Position numbers and translations under genes: made by a program. Below, piece by piece: positions 29,633 through 39,704 of a stretch of DNA of 64,000 nt; positions within the stretch are counted from its first letter, which is position 1; the number at the start of each line of letters is the position of its first letter. A model generated the notes under the pieces. The model saw only the letters and a list, made by a program, of their open reading frames with translations. It was not told the DNA's origin and made no database searches. The DNA is from Mycobacterium sp. HUMS_12744610 (GTDB lineage: Bacteria; Actinomycetota; Actinomycetes; Mycobacteriales; Mycobacteriaceae), in assembly GCF_041206865.1 (NCBI RefSeq), contig NZ_JBGEDP010000001.1, forward strand, positions 2,542,001-2,606,000, read 5' to 3'.

Positions 29633-30376
29633 TCAGCCGAGTTGGCTGAAGTGCTTGCGCATCGATTCATCGCAGGTCAGCACGGTGGCGTGAGCGTTGG
29701 TGGTGATGCGATCGATGATCGCATCGGCGAGAATCTTTTCCTCCATGCGGTCGTGCCATTGGCCGGGCGGCAGTTGGGTGCAGTAGATCGTCGACGCCGT
29801 CTTGTGGCGCCGGTCGATCAAGGTGTGCAGCTGCTGGATCTGCTGGCGACTCGGCGTGGTGAGGAACCAGTCATCGATGATCAACAGCTCCACTTTGACC
29901 AGGGTGTCCAGGCAGCGTTTGCGCTCCCCGGTGCGTTCGGCGATGGTGAGGCGGTCGAACAGTTCACCGGCCGGCAGGTAAAGCACACTGCGGTACTGCT
30001 GGCAGGCCTTGTTGTCCAGCGCGCAGGCCACGTAGGTCTTCCCTGCGCCGGTCGGGCCTTGCAGGATGACGTCCTGATGGGTTTGCAGGTAGTTGCCGAC
30101 GGCGAGCCGGGTGATCAACTCGGTGTCCACACTGCGACCAGGCATGGCTTTGATGTCGGCGATGTCGGCAGCAGGTTGGGCCAGTGCCGCGTGTCGGCGC
30201 AGCCGGTGCAGCTTGCTGTTGCGGCGCCGCTCGTATTCCCAGTCGATGGCCATCTTGACCATCTCCGGGCCGGTGGGCCGTTGCGCACCGGTGGTGGCGG
30301 CGAGGTTCTCGAAGTACTCAGCCATGCCGGACAGGCGCATCGCCTTGAGCCTGGCCAGGGTTTCGGTATCGATCAT
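29633..30376 (-). CDS. istB: IS21-family helper ATPase IstB
   Basis: The 247-aa product begins MIDTETLARLKAMRLSGMAE and has the Walker A motif LQGPTGAGKTYVACALDNKAC and Walker B LLIIDDWFL. The family segment TIYCTQLPPGQWHDRMEEKILADAIIDRI follows. IstB is a DnaC-like AAA ATPase that helps IstA choose and capture target DNA. The ATG overlaps the istA stop (ATGA). The gene is intact, although its partner istA is broken. Confidence 0.92.
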   Translation of the reverse strand: MIDTETLARLKAMRLSGMAEYFENLAATTGAQRPTGPEMVKMAIDWEYERRRNSKLHRLRRHAALAQPAADIADIKAMPGRSVDTELITRLAVGNYLQTHQDVILQGPTGAGKTYVACALDNKACQQYRSVLYLPAGELFDRLTIAERTGERKRCLDTLVKVELLIIDDWFLTTPSRQQIQQLHTLIDRRHKTASTIYCTQLPPGQWHDRMEEKILADAIIDRITTNAHATVLTCDESMRKHFSQLG

Positions 30377-30930
30377 GCCGGGCCCCCGTCCTGGCCGTAG
30401 TAGTCGGCGCCGCGCACGAACCCGGCGTCGCCGAGGGACGCCACCGGCGGCGGATCGGCGGGTTCCCAAGTGGCCCATAGTTTCTTGATCAGCGTGTAGG
30501 ACGGCGCCGATGTGGCAGCCAAGGCCCGACCGCAGCTGTCTTCCAGCCGGGCCGTGCCGCCTTGGCGTTTGGCCAGCGACATCACCCCCAGGCAGGACCG
30601 GTAGGACTGCTCGACGATCTTGCGGGAGGCCAGGATCGCCTGGATCGCCGCCACGGTGTTCGGGCCGATGGTCGCCGCCCACTGCTCGAAGCGTTGCGCG
30701 CTCCAGTCGGCCAGCCGGTGCCGATGCCCTGCAGGCATGTGCTCGGCGACGGTGGAATACCGCCCGCGCACACCTTTTGTGGCGCGACTCTTTGGGTGAG
30801 CACGGCGGGGTGGTGGTGCGTCATGTGGGTTGAGGACGGGCTGGGCGTGACGCCGACCGGCGGGCGGGTTGTGGGTGGTGCTGTCACGGTGAGGACGGTC
30901 GGTTTAGGGTCCGGGTGATCTTGAAAGTCG

Positions 30931-30975
30931 ACGGCCCTTCCCACGTGCTTTGACTGGGCTACTGGGAAGGGCCGT
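30931..30975 (+). promoter_or_regulatory. Perfect 13-bp hairpin upstream of the three-gene operon
   Basis: ACGGCCCTTCCCA (30931-30943) and TGGGAAGGGCCGT (30963-30975) are perfect inverted copies around a 19-base loop, ending about 20 bases before the TTG start of the first gene. It could be an attenuator, a protection hairpin against outside transcription, or a transposase-binding site. The roughly 150 bases to the left of it, up to the element's end, hold no gene. Confidence 0.55.
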
Positions 30976-30995
30976 CCGAACGCCCGGAGGCGTCG

Positions 30996-31631
30996 TTGCT
31001 CAGTGTAGGTGTCGATCCTGTTGTTGTTGAACGTCAGTTGCGCTCGGGCGTGCTGAGCTGCCCGCGGTGCGGGCAGCGGTTGGCGCCGTGGGGGCACGCC
31101 GCGCCGCGGTTTGTGCGTCGTGCGACGGCGGTGGTGGAGCGGATCTGGCCGCGGCGGGCGATCTGTTCGAGCGCGGCGGGCTGTGGCCGCTCACACGTGC
31201 TGCTACCCCGGTTCTGTCTGGGCCGGCGGGTCGACGCGGTTTCGGTGATTTGGGCGGCGCTGCTGGCCCGGGCGGCGGGTTGGGGGTGGCGGCGGATCTG
31301 CGCGGCGGCGGGTCGCCCGGCCTCCACGGTTCGGGGCTGGCTGTCGCGGTTTTGCGTGCATGCCGAGTCGATCCGGGTCGGGTTCGCCCGGCTGGAACGC
31401 CACGCCAATACCGGCGCCGACATGGATCGTCTGGCTCCTGCGGCAAGCCCGGTCGCCGATGCGGTCGCCCAGATCGGTGTGGCGTGCGCGGCGGTGCGCC
31501 GGGTGGCCGGTTCGGCCGTGTTCGAGGTGTCGGCGGCCGAGCTGGTGGCGGCGTGCTCGGGTGGCTGGCTGTTGGGGTCGGGGCCGCCGGCGGTGGCGGC
31601 GTTGTCGATCAACATGAGCCCGCGTCTGTGA
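30996..31631 (+). CDS. Zinc-ribbon and HTH protein of the three-gene transposon
   Basis: The 211-aa product has LSCPRCGQRLAPWGHAAPRFVRR near residues 20-42 and then CSSAAGCGRSHVLLPRFC. This makes a treble-clef or zinc-ribbon-like N-terminus. A helical segment WGWRRICAAAGRPASTVRGWLSRF resembles a helix-turn-helix. The C-terminal 90 residues are Ala/Val-rich and featureless. The arrangement is like the DUF6431-type proteins that accompany transposase/ExeA pairs in actinobacteria (from memory, not checked). It probably binds transposon ends or target DNA. The start is a TTG with GGAGG 8 bases upstream. Confidence 0.6.
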   Translation: MLSVGVDPVVVERQLRSGVLSCPRCGQRLAPWGHAAPRFVRRATAVVERIWPRRAICSSAAGCGRSHVLLPRFCLGRRVDAVSVIWAALLARAAGWGWRRICAAAGRPASTVRGWLSRFCVHAESIRVGFARLERHANTGADMDRLAPAASPVADAVAQIGVACAAVRRVAGSAVFEVSAAELVAACSGGWLLGSGPPAVAALSINMSPRL

Positions 31632-32533
31632 ACGGCCGCCTCGGCGCGTCAGGGTCGAGCGCGTCACTGCCGTCGACCGTGGGAAGCGTTGAGGTGCCAA
31701 TAGATGTCGAAGAAGAAGTCGCGGGCCGAGCGGGCGCGCGATATCGCGCTGTACCGGTATGCGCTGATTAGGCCGCTGGCCGATCCGGGCCTGTCAGCGA
31801 CCGAGCGGGGTCGGCTGGTGCGGGAGCTGGCCGCCCAGGTGCATCTGGGCCCATCCGGTGAGCCGGTGACGGTGTCCCGCGCCAGCCTGGACCGCTGGAT
31901 TAGGGCGTGGCGGGCCGGCGGGTTCGACGCGCTGATCCCGGGCGTGTCATTCCATCTGTGTAAGTCCGGGGTGGTCCATCATCGGACCGCCGTTGGGCGG
32001 ACAGAAGGAGTGTTTTGTGACCAAGACCATGCAGATGCCGGCTGAGGAGACGACCGCGGCGCGGCGGCTGGCCGAGATGTTCACCGAAGAGACGCTGGAC
32101 TCGTTGATTAAGGATGCGGTGAAGACCGGGACCCCGATCGACGGCGCGGACGGTTTGCTGAACCAGCTGACTAAGGCCGTGCTGGAGCGGGCGCTGAATG
32201 CGGAGCTAACCCACCATCTGGGTTATGAGGCCGGCGATCCGGCCGGACGCGGATCGGGAAATTCGCGCAACGGCACCACGCCGAAAACGGTGACCACCGT
32301 CAACGGCCCGGTGCAGATCGATGCGCCGCGTGATCGCAACGGCTCGTTTGAGCCGGCGATTGTGCCGAAGAAGACCCGCCGGCTCAACAACATCAATTCG
32401 GTGGTGTTGTCGCTGTATTCACGGGGAATGACCACCCGCGATATCGAAGCCCACCTGCAGGAGGTCTATGGGGCGTCGGTGTCGCGGGAGTTGATCTCCA
32501 ATATCACCGAGGTGGTGGTCGATGAGATCAAGG

Positions 32534-33951
32534 GGGCGTGTCATTCCATCTGTGTAAGTCCGGGGTGGTCCATCATCGGACCGCCGTTGGGCGGACAGAA
32601 GGAGTGTTTTGTGACCAAGACCATGCAGATGCCGGCTGAGGAGACGACCGCGGCGCGGCGGCTGGCCGAGATGTTCACCGAAGAGACGCTGGACTCGTTG
32701 ATTAAGGATGCGGTGAAGACCGGGACCCCGATCGACGGCGCGGACGGTTTGCTGAACCAGCTGACTAAGGCCGTGCTGGAGCGGGCGCTGAATGCGGAGC
32801 TAACCCACCATCTGGGCTATGAGGCCGGCGATCCGGCCGGACGCGGATCGGGAAATTCGCGCAACGGCACCACGCCGAAAACGGTGACCACCGTCAACGG
32901 CCCGGTGCAGATCGATGCGCCGCGTGATCGCAACGGCTCGTTTGAGCCGGCGATTGTGCCGAAGAAGACCCGCCGGCTCAACAACATCAATTCGGTGGTG
33001 TTGTCGCTGTATTCACGGGGAATGACCACCCGCGATATCGAAGCCCACCTGCAGGAGGTCTATGGGGCGTCGGTGTCGCGGGAGTTGATCTCCAATATCA
33101 CCGAGGTGGTGGTCGATGAGATCAAGGCCTGGCAGGCCCGCCCGCTCGATGAGGTCTACCCGATCCTCTACATCGATGGGCTGCGGCTGCGGATCGGCGA
33201 CAACGGGGTCATCACCACCAAGGTCGCCTATTTGGCCATTGGCGTGGATCTGGAGGGCCGCAAACACGCCTTGGGCTGCTGGATCCAGGACTCCGAGGGG
33301 GCGAAGTTCTGGCAGAAGGTCGTCATCGACCTGCGCAACCGCGGGGTGCGCGACATCCTCATCGCCTGCTGCGACGGGCTGACCGGTCTGCCTGATGCGA
33401 TCCGCTCGATCTATCCCGATACCGTGGTGCAGACCTGCGTCGTGCACGTCATTAGGAATGCGATGCGCTTCGTGTCTTATAAGGACCGCAAGAAGGTCGC
33501 CACCGCGATGCGGGCGATCTACAGTGCGCCGACCGTCGATGGAGCCGAACTCGCACTCAAGGAGTTCGACCAGCAATTCGGCGCCCAATATCCGGGTGCA
33601 ATTGACGTGTGGCACAACGCCTGGGGGGAATTCGTTCCGTTCCTGGACTATCCGGTGGAGTTGCGCAAGATCGTCTACACCACCAATGCGATCGAGTCGA
33701 TCAACTTCCAGTTGCGCAAGATCACCAAGAACCGTGGTCATTTCACGGACAAGGACGCCGCGATGAAGTTGCTGTACCTCGGGCTGCGCAACATCTCCAG
33801 CGAGAGAGGAGGCTATTCGGGTACTGGAACGCACAACTGGACTGTGGCGCTCAACACACTCGCCAGACTATTCCCTGGGCGAATCCCATTGTGCTAGAAT
33901 ACAACTCGTAGTCAAATCACCTCTGACTTACACAGAAATCGTGACAGGCTC
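32534..33951 (+). mobile_element. IS256-family element, copy 2, inserted inside copy 1
   Basis: A complete 1418-bp copy in the same orientation as its host copy. The target duplication GATCAAGG is at 32526-32533 and 33952-33959. It differs from the other copies by at least one base (GGGCTATGAG at about 32814, where the others have GGGTTATGAG). Confidence 0.93.
32611..33897 (+). CDS. IS256-family (mutator-type) transposase, intact
   Basis: The 428-aa DDE transposase has the mutator signatures LYIDGLRLRIGDNG (first Asp), IACCDGLTGLPDAI (second Asp), CVVHVIRNAMRFV (the CxxH motif) and YTTNAIESINFQLRKI (Glu). N-terminal text is LLNQLTKAVLERALNAELTHHLGYE, the Mut-family oligomerisation/DNA-binding region. 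The GTG follows AAGGAG at a 7-base spacing. It ends in a TAG before the right inverted repeat. This and copy 5 are the only full-length frames in the window, so they are the likely source of activity. Confidence 0.95.
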   Translation: MTKTMQMPAEETTAARRLAEMFTEETLDSLIKDAVKTGTPIDGADGLLNQLTKAVLERALNAELTHHLGYEAGDPAGRGSGNSRNGTTPKTVTTVNGPVQIDAPRDRNGSFEPAIVPKKTRRLNNINSVVLSLYSRGMTTRDIEAHLQEVYGASVSRELISNITEVVVDEIKAWQARPLDEVYPILYIDGLRLRIGDNGVITTKVAYLAIGVDLEGRKHALGCWIQDSEGAKFWQKVVIDLRNRGVRDILIACCDGLTGLPDAIRSIYPDTVVQTCVVHVIRNAMRFVSYKDRKKVATAMRAIYSAPTVDGAELALKEFDQQFGAQYPGAIDVWHNAWGEFVPFLDYPVELRKIVYTTNAIESINFQLRKITKNRGHFTDKDAAMKLLYLGLRNISSERGGYSGTGTHNWTVALNTLARLFPGRIPLC

Positions 33952-35981
33952 GATCAAGGCCTGGCAGGCCCGCCCGCTCGATGAGGTCTACCCGATCCTC
34001 TACATCGATGGGCTGCGGCTGCGGATCGGCGACAACGGGGTCATCACCACCAAGGTCGCCTATTTGGCCATTGGCGTGGATCTGGAGGGCCGCAAACACG
34101 CCTTGGGCTGCTGGATCCAGGACTCCGAGGGGGCGAAGTTCTGGCAGAAGGTCGTCATCGACCTGCGCAACCGCGGGGTGCGCGACATCCTCATCGCCTG
34201 CTGCGACGGGCTGACCGGTCTGCCTGATGCGATCCGCTCGATCTATCCCGATACCGTGGTGCAGACCTGCGTCGTGCACGTCATTAGGAATGCGATGCGC
34301 TTCGTGTCTTATAAGGACCGCAAGAAGGTCGCCACCGCGATGCGGGCGATCTACAGTGCGCCGACCGTCGATGGAGCCGAACTCGCACTCAAGGAGTTCG
34401 ACCAGCAATTCGGCGCCCAATATCCGGGTGCAATTGACGTGTGGCACAACGCCTGGGGGGAATTCGTTCCGTTCCTGGACTATCCGGTGGAGTTGCGCAA
34501 GATCGTCTACACCACCAATGCGATCGAGTCGATCAACTTCCAGTTGCGCAAGATCACCAAGAACCGTGGTCATTTCACGGACAAGGACGCCGCGATGAAG
34601 TTGCTGTACCTCGGGCTGCGCAACATCTCCAGCGAGAGAGGAGGCTATTCGGGTACTGGAACGCACAACTGGACTGTGGCGCTCAACACACTCGCCAGAC
34701 TATTCCCTGGGCGAATCCCATTGTGCTAGAATACAACTCGTAGTCAAATCACCTCTGACTTACACAGAAATCGTGACAGGCTCCTGATCCCGCCCGAACG
34801 CCAGGTGGCCCCGCGCACCGACGCCGAGGTGTTGGAGCTCGCGGCGCGGCTCAAGCGCGAACACCCCGCCCGTACTGCGGCCCACATCGCCCGCATCGTG
34901 GAGGCCGAGCAGGGGTGGGCGCCCTCGGCGCGCACTTTGCAACGCCACTTCGCCCGGCTCGAGCTCAACACCCGCCCGGACGGCAACCCGCCGGCCGCGT
35001 TCGGCCGATTCGAGGCCGAGGCGCCCGACCAGATGTGGATCAGCGACGGGCTGCACGGCCCGATCGTCGCCGGCCGCCGGGCGGTGTTGTTCGCGCTGCT
35101 TGACGACCACTCCCGCTACGTGCCCGGGCACCGGTGGGGCCACGGCGAGGACACCCTGGGCATGCAGGCCGCGCTGCACGACGCGGTCAAAACCCACGGC
35201 TGCCCGCGAAAACTGTACTGCGACAACGGAGCTGCCTACGTCAGCGGTCAGCTGGCCTGGTCGGCGGCGGTGCTCGACATCGCGCTGGTGCACAGCCGGC
35301 CCGGAAAACCGCAAGGGCGGGGCAAAATAGAACGCTGGAACCGCACCGTGCGCGACCAGTTCCTGGTCGAGATCGAGGCCGCCGGGGAGGTGGCCTCGCT
35401 CGAGGAGCTGAACCGGTTGTTCACCGCCTGGTGCCACCAGCACTACCACCGCAGCGTGCATTCAGAAACCGGCGCCACCCCGCTGGCGCGCTATCACGCC
35501 CAGGGCCGCACCCCGGCGCCGCGCCCGGACGCGGGGCTTTTGCGGCGCGCGTTTTTGTGGCGCGAGCAGCGCAGGGTCACCGCCACCGCCACGGTGTCGT
35601 TGCACGGCAACCGCTATGAGCTCGACCCCGCCCTGGTCGGCCGTGTCGTGGATCTGCTGTTCACCCCGTTCGACCTGACCGTCATCGACATCGAATACCA
35701 GGGCAAGGCGATGGGCCGGGCCATTCCGCACACCATCGGCCGCCACACCCACCCCGCGGTCAAACCCGACATCCCCGCACCGGTGCAAGCCACCGGCATC
35801 GACTACCTGCACCTGCTGGAGCAGGCACATCAAGCCGATGTGGGTCAGGCGATCAACTATCTCGCCCTGGCCGACAGCGACATCCAAGCACCCCGCCACG
35901 ACCAAACCGGACCGCAAAACCCTTAAGCAGCAACGCTATCCACCTCGACCACCGTGGCGAGCCCACGGGGAACGGACCATC

Positions 35982-36812
35982 ATGCTCGACAAGATCCAAT
36001 CCTATTTCGGTTTGACGACCATGCCCTTCGGCCGCGCCCTGGCGCCGGGCATGCTGTTTCCCAGTGCCGACCACTCCCAGGCCGCCGCCCGCATCGGCTA
36101 CGGCATCGCCACCCGCGGTATCACCGTGATCACCGGCGAAGTCGGTGTCGGCAAGACCGTCGCCGCCCGCGCCGCGATCGAGCGCGCCGAACCGGCACGT
36201 CACCACCTGATCTACATCCCCGACCCCACCGTCGCCGCCCGCGGCATCTACCACCACATCGTGACCGCGCTGGGCTGCCGGCCCAGCTTCCACAACGCCG
36301 CCCTGGTTCCCCAAGCCCGCGATGCGCTGGCCGCCGAAGCCGCCGAACGCGGCCGCGTCCCCATCTTGTGCATCGACGAGGCCCACCTGCTTTCCCACGA
36401 CGCCCTCGAAGCGCTGCGGCTGCTCACCAATCACCGTCTCGACACCGAATCACCGTTCGCCACAATACTTCTCGGCCAACCCACACTCGCCGCCAAAATG
36501 TCCCTGGGCATCTTGGCCGCCCTGGAACAACGCATCACCGTGCGCCGCACCATGACCGGCATGACCAGCGAGGAGACCGCCGGATACATCCGCCACCACC
36601 TACAGCTCGCCGGCCGATCCGACCCGCTGTTCACCGACGATGCCCTCGCCCTGATCCACGACTCCGGTCGCGGCAAGCCCCGCGGTGTCAACCGGCTCGC
36701 CATCGCCGCGCTCATCGCCGCCTGCGCCGCAGGCAAAAACCTCGTCGACGAGTCCAGCGCACGATCGGCGATCACCGAAACCAACCACGACATCCAGCCC
36801 GCGACACCCTGA
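35982..36812 (+). CDS. AAA ATPase of the ExeA/TniB type
   Basis: The 276-aa product begins MLDKIQSYFGLTTMPFGRAL, the ExeA-like start, and has Walker A in TVITGEVGVGKTVAARAAIE. It also has Walker B PILCIDEAHLLSHDALEALRLLTNH and a sensor segment ATILLGQPTLAAKM. A winged/helical C-terminus reads SGRGKPRGVNRLAIAALIAACA. In Tn402/Tn7-like systems such ATPases choose target sites and activate the transposase. It begins 55 bases after the transposase gene, with the same orientation. It is intact. Confidence 0.88.
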   Translation: MLDKIQSYFGLTTMPFGRALAPGMLFPSADHSQAAARIGYGIATRGITVITGEVGVGKTVAARAAIERAEPARHHLIYIPDPTVAARGIYHHIVTALGCRPSFHNAALVPQARDALAAEAAERGRVPILCIDEAHLLSHDALEALRLLTNHRLDTESPFATILLGQPTLAAKMSLGILAALEQRITVRRTMTGMTSEETAGYIRHHLQLAGRSDPLFTDDALALIHDSGRGKPRGVNRLAIAALIAACAAGKNLVDESSARSAITETNHDIQPATP

Positions 36813-37635
36813 GCACCGCCGCGACATCACGACCACCGACAGCCCCGCTCGACACGATTGAGCGGGGCTATTTCACACCCGAACCAGCCTCAACAGGAAT
36901 GACGCCACCATGTCCAAGATCAGTGACGCGCAACACCTTTGAGCCGGGCGTGGCAGGCCACGCGTTCGATACCGGCGAAGACCTCCACGGTGTTAGAGGT
37001 GACCCGCACATCCAGGCTGCACCCGATCAGCGCCGATGGCACCGAGTAGAAATTCCGGTCCACTTGAACGTGATAATTAGGGACCGCCTTGGCTTTTCGG
37101 AGATCGGCCAACTCGAACCGCACCGGCGGCAAGGGATTGAGCAGTGGCTTCTCGTCCCGGATGAACACGATCTGTCGGGAGTCTTCCCGCTTCTGGAACG
37201 GCCGCGTGTTGATCTGGTCGACCAGTTCGAAGATGGCCTCGTTCAACTCGGCCAGGCCGACAAACCGGCGATCACGCAGTACCGCGGCGACCTGGTTGGC
37301 GACGAACCGCACACTGCCCTCCACGACCGGCTTGTCACGCGGCCGCTTGACCCGGGCCGGGACGATCGCGGTGCTGTAATGCTCGGCCAGCCCGGCATAG
37401 GCCTTGGTTCAGCGCCGGCTCATAGCGGTCGGCCCGCGACACCCCGGTGCGAAGGTTGTCCGGCACGAGTAGCCGGGCCGTGCCACCAAACGCCTCGAAC
37501 GCATGCACATGGGCATCAATCCACGAAACCAGCGTCATATCGGTGAATGTTTTGCGTCTGACTTCGCGATAGAGATCGGTGTGTCGATCAGACGACATCC
37601 GACGGGTTCTCCGAGCTCTCTTGGAGGATCTGATC

Positions 37636-37980
37636 ATGTCCGAAGCAAACTCTGGTGGCGACCGCTCGCACCGTCGCCCGAAGCGGTTCTTGAGCCCGTC
37701 GCAGAAGTACGAGATATGGCTGCAGCTGGTACGCCAGGAGGTGACGATCGCCGAGGCCGCCGCCAACCATCAGGTGGATCGCACGACGATCATGCGCATC
37801 CGCACGATCGCCAAGGAAGGTGCGCTGGCCGCGCTGGCGGCAGCCAAGCCAGGCGCGGCGGCCCGCCAACGCGACTACGAACTCGATGCCGCCAAGGCCG
37901 AGAACGCGCGGCTGTCCGAGGCACTCAAGGAGATGGCCGTGCGGCTGACGTTGGTCGAGGGAAAAGGGCGCTGGGGCTAA
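37636..37980 (+). CDS. IS3-type OrfA (HTH protein)
   Basis: The 114-aa product has an HTH (RFLSPSQKYEIWLQLVRQ, then TIAEAAANHQVDRTTIMRI) followed by a leucine-rich helix (KAENARLSEALKEMAVRLTLVEG). This is typical of OrfA proteins, which bind element ends and dimerise. Near its end the frame reads GGA AAA GGG, an A-rich slip site. A -1 shift there would fuse it to OrfB as OrfAB. Confidence 0.8.
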   Translation: MSEANSGGDRSHRRPKRFLSPSQKYEIWLQLVRQEVTIAEAAANHQVDRTTIMRIRTIAKEGALAALAAAKPGAAARQRDYELDAAKAENARLSEALKEMAVRLTLVEGKGRWG

Positions 37981-38006
37981 GTGGCCGAGTCCCACACCGT
38001 GTCGAC

Positions 38007-39056
38007 GTGGCCACCAAGACGGCGCTGTTGGGCTTGCTCGACCAGGCGGTCGATGAAGGTTGGACACTGCGCCAGGCATGCCATGCGTTGGAGCTCGGCG
38101 AGCTGCGGGCACATCGCTGGATCGCTCGCCGAGCGATCGGCCAGCTGGTCGACAAGATCCCTGGTGGGTCGCCCATGCATGGGCTGCTCGACGAAGAAGT
38201 CAGCGAGATCTTGGCGTTGTTCGACCAGTGGGGCGAGACCGACCGCTCGCACCGCAAGCTTGCTCACCGCGGCTCTTATCTGGGCCGGGTATGGGTGTCA
38301 CCGTCGAGTGTTCGTCGGGTCCTGTTCTTGGCGGACAAGCACTTTCGACCACTTCCCAAGCCTGGACGTTCTCAACGCAAGCCCTTCCCGGATTGGGTGG
38401 ACTACAAGCCGAACTCGATCTGGATTTACGATACGACGCACTTCACCAGGGCGGGGATGGCAGTGTTGATCATTCAGGATTTGGTCTCGCGCAAGTGGAT
38501 CACCGAGGTCGTCTCCGCTGAGGAAACCTCCACCCAGGTCGAGATCGGGTTCACCGACGCGCTCGACATCGAGGGACTCCTGCAGGCCGTTGAGCGACGC
38601 GCCGACGGCCTGGTCGATATCGGCATCGACGACCAGGCCCGGCCGATCCTGCTCGCGGTGTCCGATAACGGTCCCCAGATGACGTCGGGCTCGACGCGGG
38701 AGTTCATGGCCATGTCTGCGATCGCCCAGCACTTCGGACGCCCCGGAACGCCGACCGATCAAGCCTGGATCGAGAGTTTCAACGGGCACCTCAAGGCCGA
38801 GTTCCCGCACCTGCTCGCGATCGAGGACCCCGCCACCCTGCGCGCCGAACTTGCCGTCACCCGCCAATTCTGGAACGGAGTCCGGTTGCACGCCGGCATC
38901 GGCTATGTCACGCCCAACGACGAACACGAAGGACGAGGGGAGGCCATCCGCAAAGCACGCCAAGCCGGGCTCGAATCCGCCCGCAACCGCCGACTTGCCT
39001 GGCACCGCCAGCAAAGGCACACTCAACCCATACAGGATCCCGACGATGTTGTCTGA
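38007..39056 (+). CDS. IS3-type OrfB (rve-fold DDE transposase)
   Basis: The integrase-core protein has SIWIYDTTHFTRAGMAVLII (first Asp), LAVSDNGPQMTSG (second Asp) and TPTDQAWIESFNGHLKAEF (Glu). The N-terminal region has VDEGWTLRQACHALELGELRAHRW. I start it at a GTG at 38007, but a fusion from OrfA through a -1 frameshift is more likely in vivo, because the same frame is open back through RALGLSGRVPHRVDVATK. The catalytic residues are complete. Confidence 0.82.
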   Translation: MATKTALLGLLDQAVDEGWTLRQACHALELGELRAHRWIARRAIGQLVDKIPGGSPMHGLLDEEVSEILALFDQWGETDRSHRKLAHRGSYLGRVWVSPSSVRRVLFLADKHFRPLPKPGRSQRKPFPDWVDYKPNSIWIYDTTHFTRAGMAVLIIQDLVSRKWITEVVSAEETSTQVEIGFTDALDIEGLLQAVERRADGLVDIGIDDQARPILLAVSDNGPQMTSGSTREFMAMSAIAQHFGRPGTPTDQAWIESFNGHLKAEFPHLLAIEDPATLRAELAVTRQFWNGVRLHAGIGYVTPNDEHEGRGEAIRKARQAGLESARNRRLAWHRQQRHTQPIQDPDDVV

Positions 39057-39704
39057 TCAAACGCGAATGTCTATCGCAAAGTCAGAAACACCTCAGTGAA
39101 CGCCTCCACATACGTGAAGGCCGAAAACGACAGCGCGGCCACGAACAACCACGCATCGGTCGGGGCGCCGCTGAGCGGATCGACGAAGCTCATCGCATCA
39201 CCGGCCCAGTCGACCTCGATGGACTCGCCCGGGGTGCGCTGAATACGCATCGACGCCCCCGTCGAGGCCACCCAGCGGCGGTACTGTTCGTTGAAAAACG
39301 AATACCGATACGGAACCCCGCCGCAGGCCCGGCAGGCCGCAACATACTCGTTCCACAACAGCAGCAGCGTCACCGACGGACGCCCCAGTTCGCGGTGCAC
39401 ATACTCGAAATCCGGCGCCACACGGTCAGAGTCCGGCCTGGCCGGTTCGGGCAGCAGCAGGTGGCGGACCTCATCGGCGGCGAGGTCGGCCACCTCCCCG
39501 AAACCCACCCCGGCCGCGGTTGCGGCGGCGAATACTGCCGCCACCGTGTTCCGGGAGCAGCCCAGCACATCCGCGATACCGCGCTGGCTCACCCCTTCGG
39601 CGCGTAGCCGCAGGATCCGTTTGTAGTCGACCATCGAAGGTGACCCCTTTCGTCACGTCCGCGTCCCAGCGACACGGACCGACGAACGATCGCACCCTCA
39701 ACAC

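Follow-up and report, generated by a model that had tools for sequence, protein, structure and literature searches.

Evidence for a widespread, apparently undescribed family of Mu/TnsB-class transposons with a zinc-ribbon protein in a fixed three-gene order

Introduction

What kind of transposon joins a Mu-like transposase and its ATPase to a small zinc-ribbon protein, and how does it relate to Mu, Tn7 and Tn402? The question is raised by a locus in a 64,000-nucleotide stretch of the genome of Mycobacterium sp. HUMS_12744610 (contig NZ_JBGEDP010000001.1, positions 2,542,001 to 2,606,000; hereafter the window, in whose numbering coordinates are given). An original prediction had placed a minimal transposon there at 30778..36932, with an 8-bp duplication and TG...CA tips, encoding a 211-aa zinc-ribbon/helix-turn-helix (HTH) protein (ZR), a Mu/TniA-like transposase (TN) and a TniB/ExeA-like ATPase (AT). 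All three genes are present, TN with an rve domain and AT as an AAA ATPase. We consider it likely that the locus represents a 3.3-kb transposon of the Mu/TnsB class, belonging to a widespread and apparently undescribed family with the fixed order ZR-TN-AT, which would move by the mechanism proposed in the Discussion.

A discrete element present in several copies

The locus is a discrete, multi-copy transposon of the TniA/TniB type (Mu/TnsB plus MuB/TnsC). The host genome carries four near-identical elements (the window copy, L009, L010 and L011) and one of ~85% identity (L012), as well as damaged or more distant relatives (L013, L014). The ends were set by aligning the tips and flanks of these five copies with those of six copies in two other genomes, G080 (same order, other family; L037, L038, L039 and L041) and G052 (same genus; L042 and L043). 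On this comparison the window transposon occupies 30778-36935 on the forward strand, 6158 bp including a load of IS256 sequence, with tips TGTGGCGC...GCGCAACA and terminal repeats represented by its first 24 bp (30778-30801, forward) and last 24 bp (36912-36935, reverse). The predicted left end stands, and the right end moves from 36932 to 36935. The tips are TGT...ACA, so that in this part the true ends differ from those first proposed; the ACA 3' of the first-noted right tip belongs to the element (GCGCAACA), as seen in L009, L010, L011 (~100%) and L012 (~85%).

The target duplication measures 5 bp in 10 of the 11 copies, not 8 bp as had been read. In the window it is CCTTT (30773-30777 on the left, 36936-36940 on the right), and it looked like 8 bp because the left flank by chance reads ACA before CCTTT. 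The other host-genome copies are flanked by TCAGT, CCCCT, CCGAG and CCGCG, and those in G080 and G052 by TTGGT, CCTGG, CCAGG, GCTCC and CCTTG, the eleventh copy (L043) having the 7-bp duplication GTCGCAT; L013 and L040 were excluded for their damaged ends. C occupies position 2 in nine of the ten 5-bp sites, a raw count that does not factor in the base composition of the DNA. Within the window the repeat ACACCTTT is indeed confined to the two flanks (30770-30777 and 36933-36940); two matches, against 0.50 expected, were reached by 12 of 100 shuffles, which makes the repeat weak evidence by itself.

The insertion had been assigned to istA. This holds for the right flank, where an open reading frame (ORF) matches the IS21 transposase (E 7e-10) and points to an istA-like target; the left-flank ORF has no match in NCBIfam or Pfam. 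No empty target site, in the form of a second right-flank copy, was found in the host genome (the left flank was not searched). Within 29633-39634 of the window the istA-like gene adjoins a further transposase ORF (37503-39056), IS3/IS481-like and under both cut-offs, and the IS21 is fragmented.

Among more distant relatives, near-matching tips were found at 3 of 24 loci (L087, L097, L021), the null being 2 of 552 mismatched pairs; the ends of L077 and L102 are weaker, and the remaining loci have poor tips or none. That search required a 5-bp repeat and is circular for duplication length; it does not enter the count of 10 in 11. A GC-rich, terminator-like hairpin lies inside the right end in all four actinobacterial elements inspected (window 36841-36869, forward strand; L038, L042 and L097).

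The original prediction missed that the window transposase gene is broken. Positions 31941-34783 (forward strand) are an IS256-family element that harbors another IS256 (~32534-33951); the insertion is flanked by the 9-bp repeat CTGATCCCG and is foreign to the transposon. The uninterrupted copy, L011 (5604-8909), is 3306 bp long and is filled by ZR (211 aa), TN (456 aa) and AT (276 aa); it has no TniQ or resolvase gene, as predicted. The same IS256-family element (~1418 bp) has split TN at three different points in three of the four near-identical copies (window, L009, L010). In the relative L014 (G000:C1:973532-975111) the ATPase is family-like no further than the Walker A region, beyond which it reads as another AAA protein, IstB-like by eye, possibly as a recombinant; a ZR gene with a good leader lies ~4 kb off on the opposite strand.

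The three proteins

ZR (30996-31631, forward strand, TTG start) is a relative of DUF6431. Its Cys 22, 25, 57 and 63 and His 67 are invariant in an alignment of 13 close relatives, and an AlphaFold2 model from a more diverse alignment (pLDDT, the model's own confidence score, 84.2; an earlier model was poor at 57.7) combines a beta-type zinc ribbon with an HTH (~82-121) and with helices that reach residue 188, the tail being loose. Fold searches gave nothing at E < 0.001 and weak HTH-like matches only; TniQ was not among the matches listed, which leaves room for a shared zinc-finger fold, and no relative of solved structure was found by sequence. Against Pfam DUF6431 (PF20020) the window protein scores 19.1, under the cut-off of 26.6, and the model also misses the ZR of the host genome; the ZR relatives of L063, L064, L066 and L067, encoded beside the same transposase, score 28.9-56.5.

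The TN gene survives in the window as a 5' piece (31704-31940) and a 3' piece (34793-35926), both on the forward strand, the latter encoding the rve domain, the DD(35)E triad and the Mu-type C-terminal domain that follow an HTH in the intact protein. D164 and D223 are invariant in 11 sequences and E259 nearly so, with a D223-E259 spacing of 35 residues. Compared by profile with solved structures, TN is closest to TnsB (E 1e-7), with retroviral integrases and the IS21 transposase (0.002) also among the matches. AT (35982-36812, forward strand, 276 aa, the start being chosen as the ORF start in copy L012) is an AAA+ ATPase whose best match is MuB (E 3e-11), followed by TnsC (5e-7 for VchTnsC, and 1.5e-4). 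The window AT has no Pfam TniB match, and a Ruminococcus relative has one under the cut-off. Among the candidates scored, the protein database holds 1177 relatives of ZR, at least 6327 of TN and at least 3138 of AT, only candidates sharing most words having been scored for the latter two. The nearest named TN relatives are mycobacterial (M. gastri, Ca. M. methanotrophicum and M. helveticum).

Retention and co-divergence of the trio

The order ZR-TN-AT is kept in 22 of 26 transposase-centred loci, ZR being recognised by profile directly upstream of TN on the same strand. TN matches had been found in 84 plasmid records and 7 genome contigs, of which 23 and 3, respectively, were picked for spread and not at random; four of the ZR-positive loci (L063, L064, L066, L067) contributed to the ZR profile itself, and another, L099, has a frameshifted ZR. 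Among the remaining four contigs with a TN match, ZR is present in L016 and L017 and absent from the fragments L018 and L022. ZR is in this way linked to TN and AT across phyla. Trios occur in Actinomycetota, Bacillota and Pseudomonadota, in genera such as Mycobacterium, Rhodococcus, Streptomyces, Kitasatospora, Thermobacillus, Geobacillus, Alicyclobacillus, Planococcus, Ruminococcus, Acidithiobacillus, Cupriavidus, Paraburkholderia and Pandoraea. In two contigs of metagenome-assembled genomes the match is weaker (one labelled Porphyromonadaceae, E 4e-8, the other Deltaproteobacteria, E 7e-9). A sample of 200 genomes from the order contained seven with ZR (E 1e-10) and four with TN (E 1e-30), and ZR was present in all four of the latter.

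Moreover, the three proteins diverge together. Mantel correlations over 26 trios were 0.93 for ZR-TN, 0.91 for ZR-AT and 0.97 for TN-AT, none of them reached in 2000 permutations, and the 11 non-actinobacterial trios alone gave 0.90, 0.89 and 0.95. On trio retention and co-divergence we reject a chance linkage of the three genes; the linkage of ZR to TN and AT is strong, not exclusive.

Some members carry further ORFs. A small fourth ORF of ~74-86 aa lies 3' of AT in the Bacillota and Betaproteobacteria members L066, L087, L088, L089, L090 and L093; one of the six scores as DUF5348 (25.8 bits), and the other five have no Pfam match at E 0.01. L067 (Streptomyces) and L102 (Kitasatospora) have an extra annotated short ORF of 279 and 207 bp, respectively, between TN and AT. 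The plasmid DUF6431 genes of L058-L061 have neither transposase nor leader match and are possibly domesticated or of other function. As for spread by phages, ZR had no match in 50,697 phage records and TN no relative in one scan of viral contigs.

A covarying leader upstream of ZR

In the window a perfect 14-bp inverted repeat (arms 30930-30943 and 30963-30976, loop of 19 nt, forward strand) ends 19 nt ahead of the ZR start, and a small hairpin (30980-30993, forward strand) contains the Shine-Dalgarno motif GGAGG (30986-30990). Folding z-scores against shuffles were -3.6 for the window, -2.8 for L042, -2.2 for L038 and -0.9 for L097. When 36 ZR loci of all phyla were first scanned, a hairpin was detected in 20 (p 0.03 or better, 100 mononucleotide shuffles) and none in 16 (L045, L046, L058-L061, L063, L078, L081, L082, L086-L089, L092 and L093). 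A second scan took in 19 actinobacterial loci, drawn mostly from the hairpin-positive ones of the first together with six new loci; the hairpin recurred at the same position in 18 (equalled by 0-5 of 200 dinucleotide shuffles), whereas L067 failed (12 of 200). Both scans together place it in 18 of 29 actinobacterial ZR loci. Perfect dyads of 10-14 bp occur in most leaders, with a loop of 16-24 nt in 17 of the 18; the Bacillota loci L062, L064, L066 and L094 have strong hairpins of different sequence.

RNAalifold folded the 18 leaders into a stem of 10 bp and a hairpin of 3 bp that encloses the Shine-Dalgarno, with changes on both sides in 6 of 13 pairs. Three measures were reached by none of 500 shuffles: the share of paired cells (93.2%, shuffled 84.7), the number of double-change cells (20, shuffled 6.0, standard deviation 2.2) and the covariation (0.303, shuffled 0.147; slid versions reached at most 0.106). 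Two measures were weaker, the six double-change pairs being reached by 15 of 500 shuffles and the 12 further pair types by 110.

A model built from the 18 leaders and run over 62 loci at E 0.1 gave 39 matches, comprising 26 forward matches before ZR, 12 reverse-strand reads of those same hairpins and a weak one at L081; the best outside the training set and its copies was L017 (68.5 bits), itself a near relative. In the host genome six matches were found, at the six ZR genes found (the best 150 of 5967 first-look candidates being scored). Under stricter filters the 200 genomes of the order yielded 18 matches in eight genomes, 14 of them at ZR genes; of the other four, three are followed directly by a ZR remnant (L107 and L108, two of these, share their leader sequence) and L106 by none. 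The ZR genomes without a leader match are G054, G124 and G172, the ZR of G172 being cut at its start. Searches of Rfam with window 30500-37200 (up to E 1) and with five relatives (at the gathering score) found no match. By its covariation the leader before ZR is a predicted new RNA element of many actinobacterial members. It probably controls translation of ZR, and perhaps that of the whole operon.

Discussion

The element shares with Mu a DDE transposase with a Mu-type C-terminal domain, a MuB-like ATPase and a 5-bp target duplication; phage structural genes are absent between the ends of L011, and ZR is an addition, as is the leader RNA of many actinobacterial members. Members of the Tn402/Tn5053 family have TGT...ACA tips, a 5-bp duplication and the genes for TniA, TniB, TniQ and TniR. 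Our element has such tips and such a duplication too, and it matches their TniA-type transposase and TniB-type ATPase at class level, by profile and without a tree. It differs in having ZR first in the operon and no TniQ among the main window ORFs scanned, and L011 has no room for a resolvase gene (a res site was not searched for). The likeness to Tn7 and to CRISPR-associated transposons (CAST) extends to TnsB and TnsC by profile, whereas TnsA, TniQ/TnsD and Cas genes are absent from the gene set of L011. Tn552, set apart here by description, likewise has a transposase and an ATPase without TniQ, but it carries a resolvase and resistance cargo and is not known to have a ZR. IS481 and IS21 share the rve domain, TN of L011 scoring 159.7 bits against the former (curated cut-off 224) and 54.6 against the latter (cut-off 160); IS481 elements have one gene, against three here, and no IstB model was among the AT matches at E 0.1. 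TnRErm46 was rejected as the same element, since the part of its description consulted assigns it to IS481, with CTAG as target and with different ATPases (PMC6794481).

In the mechanism that we propose, the N-terminal HTH domains of TN would bind the end repeats, TN would join the element's ends to the target at a stagger of 5 bp, and AT would form an ATP-dependent oligomer on target DNA and activate TN there, as MuB and TnsC do; these roles are taken from the respective families. ZR, a free-standing zinc ribbon and HTH with a conserved C-terminal tail, could be a core DNA-binding partner that links AT and TN to target or end DNA. The leader would most likely restrict translation of the first gene, for instance when transcripts come in from outside.

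Several observations weigh against this reading. ZR could not be recognised in 4 of the 26 loci with TN and AT (L021, L065, L091 and L095; two are sphingomonad elements with a recombinase annotation, the others are from Scytonema and Desulfobacula), and L019 retains a single cysteine in the ZR stretch. Seen from the ZR side the linkage is looser: nine DUF6431 places, spread over six genomes out of 296 sampled from the phylum and a lower bound because the family model misses the window's own ZR, resolve into four trios, one that runs off a contig end and four without TN or AT, one of which (L083) does not even match the ZR profile; the plasmid ZR loci L058-L061 also stand alone. Of the 28 loci entered in the Mantel analysis, L063 and L090 were lost when a second ZR profile run missed one or more of the three proteins, and the co-divergence may in part mirror host phylogeny. 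The leader hairpin is missing from 11 of the 29 actinobacterial ZR loci, the leader model has no match in the Bacillota and Pseudomonadota loci searched, and the duplication of L043 departs from 5 bp.

How ZR itself is to be understood admits several answers. We tentatively favor, as a reading that may well be right, that it is a core transposition partner in the place that TniQ has in Tn402 and Tn7, given its retention beside TN and AT across phyla and a divergence that parallels theirs. It is also possible, and deserves serious consideration, that ZR stays outside the transposition machine as a transcriptional or translational repressor that binds the left end or the leader in autoregulation, like CvkR on a CAST, although its retention in 22 of 26 loci across phyla and its co-divergence are, in our judgment, more than is usual for a replaceable repressor. 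That the element is simply a member of the Tn402/Tn5053 or Tn7 group minus TniQ and resolvase, with ZR as chance cargo, would fit the shared catalytic pair and the tips and 5-bp duplication known from that group. We nevertheless regard this as very unlikely: ZR does not behave as chance cargo, because the order is constant from Mycobacterium to Ruminococcus, Geobacillus and Cupriavidus, and the sphingomonad elements with TN, AT and a recombinase lack a ZR match and show ~30% identity in TN. More speculatively, and in our view improbably, DUF6431 proteins could be the RNA- or nucleic-acid-sensing part of an AAA+ transposon class additional to those of Mu, Tn7/Tn402 and IS21, with ZR binding its own leader so that a ribonucleoprotein or its feedback sets when or where the element jumps.

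The leader inverted repeat might instead serve as a DNA operator or a read-through terminator. The perfect dyads would suit such a role, shields against read-through are common in insertion elements, and single-sequence folding is not always better than that of shuffles. The variable loop length, the compensated changes in the arms, the second covarying hairpin enclosing the Shine-Dalgarno and the lack of a T-run after the hairpin in the second-scan sequences speak against it, and we hold the operator or terminator account to be rather unlikely. A leader that acts as a guide and changes with each insertion is disfavored, because copies at different targets are 100% identical here in the leader region and have identical leader-model scores.

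DUF6431 appears in one paper of the open-access literature searched, as a row next to a DDE integrase in a table of the part consulted (PMC12323340). A survey of Tn7 elements divides TnsC homologues into two clades, MuB and Tn7, the latter with ubiquitous TniQ/TnsD, and the portion seen makes no mention of the ZR-TN-AT trio (PMC10293859). No description of the trio was found in the same literature; this is no proof of novelty, and the element may have a name in ISfinder or TnCentral.

In conclusion, the presented data unite genes that often carry separate annotations ('DDE-type integrase' or 'IS481 transposase'; 'ExeA' or 'AAA family ATPase'; 'DUF6431') in one mobile element that occurs in several phyla, and they propose an area of function for DUF6431. 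The family offers a predicted new covarying leader that is directly testable, and it may be a natural case of a small zinc-ribbon/HTH protein standing in for TniQ.

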